Assembly (NCBI GenBank): GCA_002753735.1
Contig: PEAN01000008.1
Span: 1 to 64,000 of the forward strand
Length of the DNA stretch: 64,000 nucleotides
Direction of reading: 5' to 3'
DNA from: Magnetococcales bacterium DCbin4
GTDB lineage: Bacteria; Pseudomonadota; Magnetococcia; Magnetococcales; UBA8363
Below, piece by piece: positions 9,571 to 21,207 of the stretch; position 1 is the first letter of the stretch, and each line of letters opens with the position of its first letter. The notes below the pieces were generated by a model that had not been told where the DNA came from, did no database searches, and saw only the letters and a list, made by a program, of their open reading frames with translations. A program made the translations under genes and the position numbers.

Positions 9571-12500
9571 ATGAAAAAAATGGTTATTGGTGTTGTTCTG
9601 GCACTGTTGCATCTCCTTTTTTCCGTGGGATGTGGCGGTGGCGGCGGATCGGGGGATGGATCGACATCGGCGGCCAAAGTACCCGTTTCCGGGGTCATCT
9701 TCGATGGCGCGGTCACGAATACCACCATCACCGTCCATGATGCGACGGGAGCCAAGGTCGCGACCACCACCAGCGACGGCAATGCGCGCTATTTCCTGGA
9801 CATTCCCCTCAATGTTCCACGGCCGTTGGAAATCCGAGCAACCGGCGGTATCGATTCGGTGACCGGCGAACCCATGAACGTCACGCTCTCTTCCATGTTC
9901 ATGGATTCATCCAAGGAAACGGTCAACGTTTCCCCCCTCACGACGCTGATCACCAAGGCCAGTATGACCCTTGCGGGCGGTACCCTGTCCCGGGTTGCAC
10001 AGGAAAACATTGACGCCGCTCGGAAAAAAATCGTAGCCGCTTATGGTTTTGGCATCGATGGCGGCCAGGCCGACCTGGACCCTTTGACCACCCCGATCGC
10101 TTCGGCGAATATCGCCACCGTTGCCAAGGCTTCGGAGGCACTGGGTGAAACGGTACGCCGGGTTGCAGGCACCAACGCCCTGGACCAGGAAAAAATCTAT
10201 GCCGCCATTGCCGAGGATATTTCAGATGGCACCCTGGATGGTCAAAGTGGGGGAGCCACCTTGTCAACCACCCTGCCTGCGGACATGAACCCCAGTACGT
10301 TCATGCAATCCATGGCGGTACATACCGTGGATATCTTGACTGAACTCGTGTCGAACAACCTGTCGGTCACCAAGAACGATGGCGCAAAGATGACTTCCAC
10401 AGAGGTTAACGCGGCGCTGGCAAAATCCCTGAGTACCGTTCTTCCACAGATTGATTCCGGAACTGCGACCACCAGCCTTGAACAAACAAAAATTTCTGAA
10501 AATATGAAAAATCAGGCGCTGACCGCGATCCAATCGGCCCGTAACCTGGTTGGATCGTCGAGCAAATCCCCGGCATTGTTGGCTGAGTTGTCCACCCGTT
10601 TCGCCAATCTGAAGGTTGGTGACAGCGCGAAGGGACAAATCGACGAGGAAATGACGGCACTGATCGCGAATGTGAAAACCATCACCGGCAACCTTGTTCA
10701 GGGAATCAACGCAGCCACTGGAAAAGCCCCTTCCGATTCAAGCCTCTCCACCAACTCGAAGATGGATGCAACGACCGCCACCTTTCAACTCACCCGTTCC
10801 GGGGCCAACCAATACCTTCTCCCGGTCAAGGTGGGTCAACAGGTGTTCAACCTGCTCATGGATACCGGATCGGACGCCTTGCTGGTGTTCCAGGACAAGA
10901 TCGATCCCAGCAATACCGGGATCGTGGCCAGCGAAACCAAGATCAAGAAATCCTATGCCAGTGGCATCCGCCAGGGGGTCCTGGCCACGGCACCGGTGCG
11001 CATCGGTCCCTATACGACCCCGAGCATGAACATCATGGTGATCCAAACCCCCGACTCCGAAAATGATCCGTCGCTGACCGCCAAAGGGGCTGATGGCATC
11101 ATCGGCATGCGGCGCACCCGGGGGTTGGATCTCAGCATGGGCAACAATAATCCATTGGAAGCCACCTTGAACAAGCTCGTTCCCGAGGTGGACATGATGG
11201 AATTCAATCTCCCCCCCGCCGGAACGGCGACCCTCACCTTTGGCAGCATGCCCATTCTGGACCGCGCCAAATCCCAATACGTCATGAGGGCCAAAGCCCT
11301 CCCCATTACCAACCCCTATGATCCCTCGGCCACGAGCACTTATACCGACATCCAGATTCCCTTCCGGGCCAAAAGCCGCCTGGGGGAAATCAACACCGGC
11401 GACCTTGATATCCTGCTCGATTCCGGTGCCGTCAGCAAACTGGTCCTGGATACCGAAGTGGCGAAGGAACTGGGTTATGACACCGCCAACAAACGTTGGA
11501 AATTATCCGCAAGCGATGAGGTTGAAATCAATCTCATCGGCGTGAACGGAACCGCGCCCATCCTGCCAAAATTCAAGACCTCGGAAATCAGCATCGCCCC
11601 GTACAGCACCTCGGGCGTGGAATTTGAAGCGGTTCTTGGCATCAACCGGTGGCAGGAGTATGTCGTCGGGTATGATTATCGCTCCACCCTCCATGACGGT
11701 CCGGATGCCACCATCAGTCTGTTGCGCCGTGTGGATATGAAAGACGCCCTGAACCCAACGGTCGCAGCTTTGGGGGAGGATTATCCCCCTTTGCCCGGAC
11801 TCAACTCCCTTGGCAATGATGAACTCCCCACCTCCGACAGCAGTGGCGATCTGATCGCCTTTCAATCGGATCGCGAGGGGGGGATGGGGGGCATGGACAT
11901 CTATCTTTGGCGCAAGGGGGTGGGATTGGTGGATCTGCCCCATTTGAACCATGCCGGTCACGATGTCCATCCCGCCCTTTCGGGCGACGGTCGTTTCCTG
12001 GTGTTCCAGGCCACCAGCATGGAATCGGGAAGGACGGATCAGGATCTATTTCTGTATGACATTGAACACAAGGTGATGCGGGACACCGCAGCCATCAACT
12101 CCGTCAAGGATGACACGTTGCCCAGCCTGAGCGGCAACGGGCAATACCTGGCCTTTACCTCAAAACGCGATGGGGGAACCGGCGGCAGTGACATTTACCT
12201 TTATGACATGGAGACAGCAAAGTTCATCGACCTGCCCGGGGCCAACGGTCCCTACGATGATCGCTCGCCGCATCTGAGTGACGATGGCCACTACATGGCC
12301 TATACGATTGAAGCCTATGAAGGGACGGAACAAACCGTCAACAGGGATATCGCCGTCTACGATCTGCAACAAAAGAAGACCAAGACCCTTTCTACAGGAA
12401 TACGGGGGGTCAACACCGGAAAGGATGAACTCGCTCCCGCGCTCGGAAGTGATGGCATGCTCCTGGCTTTGCACAGCAACCGGAAAAATCCCACGAGTGG

Positions 12501-21207: not shown

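Follow-up and report, generated by a model that had tools for sequence, protein, structure and literature searches.

Is a lipoprotein of almost four thousand residues that carries aspartic-protease signatures a genuine bacterial protein, and could it act as a protease? The question is raised by a 64,000-nucleotide stretch of contig PEAN01000008.1 from Magnetococcales bacterium DCbin4 (the window; source genome of 4.52 Mb in 148 contigs), in which an initial annotation had described a ~3,878-aa lipoprotein. The gene is indeed a single continuous ORF of 3,878 codons (9571–21207, plus strand). Full-length orthologues of 4,096, 3,937, and 3,987 aa are found, one each, in 3 other Magnetococcales genomes (MAGs), sharing 57%–58% identity with the window protein across the full length. 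Because these MAGs are independent, we consider the gene real and intact, and a misassembled, chimeric, or chance ORF was rejected. The gene is present in 4 of 48 Magnetococcales genomes and was not found in the other 7 genomes of the source genus. Neither was it found in the rest of the 399-genome phylum sample, save for one match to the profile of the first protease copy in G312 (E = 8e-4), which has four internal stops and was dismissed as chance-level. Our sampling in depth covered this one phylum. A scan of the genome_contigs collection with two short peptide patterns, by which close relatives alone are detectable, matched the three Magnetococcales MAGs only. The ratio dN/dS is low throughout the protein, and we give it little weight because dS is near saturation. 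The locus is thus a genuine, intact lipoprotein gene of a few uncultured Magnetococcales. Genome G000 (contig C112, ~65.7–66.2 kb; L014:7800–8180, minus strand) contains the decayed remains of a second giant gene, in which an internal deletion fuses the start of protease 1 to the end of propeller 1 and which has a stop. Directly beside these remains lies a CRISPR array of at least 127 repeats in 7.8 kb, whose repeat resembles ggttcatccccacgggtgtggggaacac.

The protein begins with a signal peptide and lipobox (FSVGC, Cys21; 9571–9633, plus strand). All four orthologues have a signal peptide with a lipobox cysteine by a PROSITE-type, PS51257-like pattern, in which position −3 is Ser instead of Leu and position +2 is Gly, in agreement with the annotated lipobox. 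In E. coli, the Lol rule sends lipoproteins with Gly at +2 to the outer membrane. By this rule, the giant protein is probably exported as an outer-membrane lipoprotein. The following region (residues 22–402; 9634–10776, plus strand), delimited by alignment, has an Ig-like start and then appears mainly helical by eye; it shares 44%–45% identity among orthologues and gave no Pfam profile match over the cut-off. Before the protease, Ig-like and TSP3-like repeats are added in two orthologues and the Ig-like part alone in a third; in the alignment, the window protein has none of these additions.

The first protease copy spans residues 403–735 (10777–11775, plus strand). Pfam assigned an Asp_protease_2 match to the whole protein (1e-11), and copy 1 matches PF13650 (1.4e-9) and, over lobe 1 only, the eukaryotic pepsin family PF00026 (1.4e-4; 21.8 bits against a cut-off of 19.9). 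A match to PF13975 (1.4e-5), strongest in the second lobe, falls just under the cut-off. Searching the PDB with phmmer retrieved A1 proteases exclusively (polyporopepsin at 8.9e-4, plasmepsin II, and aspergillopepsin). The DTGS and DSG signatures noted earlier correspond to two catalytic motifs, LLMDTGS with Asp431 (DTGSD) and LLDSGA with Asp617 (DSGA). Both are invariant in all four orthologues, as are the flap residue Tyr462 (SYASG), which aligns with the YGSG flap of polyporopepsin, and the psi-loop hhG motifs GIIG (509–512) and VLG (688–690). Copy 1 is the best-conserved part of the protein (about 74% identity; dN/dS 0.09–0.20, with dS near saturation).

The pepsin-like fold proposed in the initial annotation was borne out by modelling for the N-lobe, and for the C-lobe the sequence motifs and weak profile matches to clan AA suggest it. 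An AlphaFold model of copy 1 from a nine-row alignment has an overall pLDDT of 53, with lobe 1 at 73–90. With this model, the best 50 PDB matches in Foldseek were all family A1 proteases (best E = 2.2e-7, probability 1.00), aligned over 182 columns at 3.7 Å. These results support a pepsin-type fold of the N-lobe. The two-lobed active site is not visible in three dimensions because the pLDDT of the C-lobe is below 50 along most of its length; its pepsin-like nature is a weaker assignment. Copy 1 keeps all the sequence hallmarks of family A1 and looks intact, from which we infer catalysis.

The annotation also proposed a second copy of the protease–propeller pair. Copy 2 (residues 1086–1640) aligns with copy 1 at 24%–27% identity, and consists of lobe 1 (12826–13170; PF13650 at 7e-4, below the cut-off), a linker rich in Thr, Pro, Ser, and Gly (13171–13845), and lobe 2 (13846–14490), which was matched by the copy 1 profile in a genome-wide search (E = 3.4e-14), all on the plus strand and bounded by alignment. 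The second pair is present, but the Thr/Pro linker lies inside copy 2, between its lobes, rather than between the first propeller and copy 2, and its length varies among orthologues. The repeated fold stands and the catalytic residues do not. In all four orthologues the second catalytic Asp is replaced by Pro (Pro1528 in the window protein), the flap Tyr is replaced by Leu, and the first DTG is broken to DTA, DNS, DTS, or DTT with loss of the motif Gly, so that copy 2 does not have the two catalytic aspartates of an active A1 protease. Both psi-loop hhG motifs are retained in all four, and copy 2 shares 48%–61% identity among orthologues. Judged by its residues, copy 2 is a pseudoprotease, whose decay predates the split of the four lineages.

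Behind each protease unit sits a PD40/TolB-type propeller with six blades as counted by eye (11776–12690 and 14491–15405, plus strand). The PD40, PA14, and LamG domains named previously were all recovered by Pfam in the whole protein, at 6.9e-32, 1.4e-30, and 1.2e-47 (Laminin_G_3), respectively. Propeller 2 is 62%–64% identical among orthologues. Behind it lie an Ig-like or regulatory-like region (residues 1946–2380) and an unclassified strand-rich domain (2381–2690), together at 15406–17640 (plus strand). Residues 1946–2690 gave no Pfam match over the cut-off, and no sequence relative of residues 1940–2690 was found in the PDB. The CARDB domain once proposed here is not supported, with no Pfam match at E ≤ 10 in residues 2200–2380, and the carboxypeptidase-regulatory-like part is reduced to sub-threshold matches. 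The tail comprises four PA14 stretches and two LamG domains (17641–21204, plus strand), with PDB relatives 6qdi and 6qe7 (PA14) and 4dqa. Sugar binding is not universal among PA14 and LamG domains. From its sequence, we predict that this tail probably binds glycans.

The fold family is already known, including in bacteria (PMC2761423). Shewasins A and D, bacterial homologues of family A1 pepsins, are single proteins of 368–561 aa that lack a signal peptide; shewasin D resides mainly in the cytoplasm (PMC2761423, PMC4814920). Like copy 1, with its predicted second lobe, they combine two lobes in one chain with two D-[TS]-G motifs, a flap Tyr, and hhG psi-loops. All marine bacterial pepsin homologues have Ala after the second motif (PMC4814920), as copy 1 does in DSGA. 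The giant protein differs from the shewasins in being exported and lipidated by prediction, in its fusion to propellers and lectin-type domains, and in carrying the protease twice, with one copy dead. A second comparison is with DUF3443 (PF11925), a family of unknown function comprising exported bacterial lipoproteins with DTGS, NGILG, and DSGS or DSGT motifs, which matches lobe 1 in a profile comparison (P = 4e-4). Its members are cysteine-rich and have no propeller, PA14, or LamG domain. Membership of the giant protein was rejected, with 17.4 bits against the PF11925 cut-off of 25 and 19.9 bits for the G043 orthologue. The motifs suggest that DUF3443 is itself a two-lobed pepsin-like protease family, and hence that exported pepsin-like lipoproteins already exist in bacteria. 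A DUF3443 lipoprotein (L045:145–2604) with a similar Gly-rich lipobox start is encoded in the congeneric genome G005, which does not have the giant gene. The giant's propellers show local similarity to PD40 lipoproteins such as PorE and the CHU_0125 OmpA family, but the giant protein scores far under their cut-offs and has no OmpA domain. Literature searches on DUF3443, on Magnetococcales together with aspartic proteases, and on bacterial vitellogenin-like proteins returned nothing usable. They yielded no described protein combining this architecture, the pseudoprotease duplication, and the partner described below. The unusual domain order noted at the outset is real and conserved in four orthologues.

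The partner, overlooked in the initial annotation, is a 674-aa protein encoded at 21307–23331 (plus strand), directly downstream of the giant gene in all four genomes, with gaps of 21–99 nt or, in G043, with its start overlapping the giant's stop. Among 100 relatives it occurs in the same four genomes as the giant gene. It was not found in any other of the 48 Magnetococcales genomes or, save for one short HEAT match, elsewhere in the 399 phylum genomes. The two genes are probably co-transcribed. The protein consists of an N-terminal membrane helix, which probably anchors it in the inner membrane, a strand-rich half with one helix, and a HEAT half. A Vitellogenin_N match occurs in every one of the four partners, at best with 4.6e-15. 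The window partner scores 51.7 bits against a cut-off of 24 over profile positions 79–567, and the G045 partner has a separate match at positions 77–164, in its strand-rich part. A first-look search, which missed the window's own copy and was therefore not exhaustive, found no Vitellogenin_N elsewhere in a 150-genome sample or in 14 control genomes. In the model of the partner, the strand-rich half has a pLDDT below 50 with a predicted strand-helix-strand order. Foldseek placed lipovitellin (3.3e-7) and MTP (6.3e-7) at ranks 1–3 over 640–666 columns, above all plain HEAT proteins, with TM-scores that are low (0.29–0.31), in keeping with the poor model. In large lipid transfer proteins (LLTPs), strands, one helix, and further strands are followed by helices. 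The partner resembles lipovitellin/vitellogenin and MTP in its Vitellogenin_N match, its predicted barrel-type half followed by a helical half, and its best PDB fold matches. It differs from them in having a membrane anchor and in ending after the helical domain, without the C-terminal lipid-binding β-sheet domain that serves lipid transfer in MTP. MTP binds apoB through its N-terminal barrel and helical domain, and lipid through its C-terminal sheet (PMC3337244). Because the partner appears to have the first two domains and lacks the third, a protein-binding, chaperone-like role of the partner seems more likely than lipid carriage.

Around the pair, the flanks across genomes share only generic histidine-kinase matches, and a wider conserved operon was rejected; since the flanks are otherwise unrelated, the giant gene and its partner form the conserved unit. 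Nothing pointed to a mobile or plasmid origin: neither the protease nor the partner has a plasmid match, and the pair has a G+C like the window's; a protease–propeller query against plasmids matched essentially propellers. In G033 (contig C55, L019:5640–7180), a CRISPR array begins ~1.5 kb beyond the downstream end of the partner gene, with 23 exact copies of a repeat that differs from that of the G000 array. Elsewhere in the window, an export-type set at 660–6851 (an OEP/TolC-like protein with SH3, two HlyD proteins, and an M50-HlyD fusion) has a G+C of 0.62 compared with 0.54 for the window. A gene at 43340–45181 fuses pentapeptide repeats to a solute-binding-protein domain (SBP_bac_3) and adjoins a TPR-secretin gene (41319–43343). 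NeuB, DegT, epimerase, and glycosyltransferase genes at 55221–63552 (minus strand) suggest a cluster for a nonulosonic-acid (sialic-acid-like) surface glycan.

Our preferred reading, to which we give somewhat better than even chances, is a pepsin-like protease that is tethered to the outer membrane, binds glycans, and is accompanied by a non-catalytic copy and an inner-membrane assembly partner, in which we infer the individual roles. The giant protein would be anchored as an exported lipoprotein, probably in the outer membrane, where the PA14/LamG tail and the propellers would hold a glycan-bearing substrate at the surface and copy 1 would cleave the held polypeptides. Copy 2, derived from a duplicated protease–propeller pair, may serve as a non-catalytic scaffold or regulator. 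In the periplasm, the LLTP-like partner would act on the giant protein as a chaperone or assembly factor, modelled on the binding of apoB by the two equivalent domains of MTP.

Copy 1 might likewise be non-proteolytic, with both pepsin-like units and the propellers forming the binding scaffold of an adhesin and the DTG and DSG motifs being structural. The neighbouring copy 2 has already lost its catalytic residues and the remaining domains of the protein are of the binding type, which would suit an adhesin; however, both Asp, the flap Tyr, and hhG are invariant in copy 1, the most conserved region, while all but hhG has decayed in copy 2, and we consider this explanation unlikely. Somewhat less probable still is that the protease acts on the very protein to which it belongs or on the partner, a cut in a linker freeing the PA14/LamG tail or maturing the complex. 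Several flexible linkers downstream, including the variable one within copy 2, and a partner that is always co-encoded would fit such processing, but no conserved cleavage site is evident because the linkers differ in sequence from one orthologue to the next.

A more serious doubt, though one we hold to be the lesser probability, is that the partner is no relative of LLTPs but a plain periplasmic protein of HEAT repeats, whose likeness to Vitellogenin_N lies in its helices alone. HEAT repeats are generic, and PDB sequence searches with the partner returned mostly designed or generic HEAT proteins; moreover, the N-terminal half of the window partner alone has no Pfam match, and the strand-rich half is modelled at low confidence. 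Against this, the G045 match (profile 77–164) falls in the strand-rich part, the window match covers profile 79–567, Foldseek prefers lipovitellin and MTP to plain HEAT proteins over 640–666 columns, and the order of strand, helix, strand, and helices is that of LLTPs.

Under the preferred reading of a surface-tethered protease, an exported and lipidated pepsin-like protease whose duplicate is fixed as a dead copy would represent another bacterial use of the fold, and copies 1 and 2 would offer a natural protease/pseudoprotease pair for testing. If the barrel of the partner is confirmed, bacteria would possess an LLTP-type module, which would suggest that the protein-binding half can work without the lipid-binding half. 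The boldest extension, a bacterial counterpart of MTP and apoB in which an LLTP-like, membrane-anchored chaperone is dedicated to one giant pepsin-bearing surface lipoprotein, is a long shot; if true, the N-terminal module of vitellogenin and MTP would be a protein-assembly factor outside animals.
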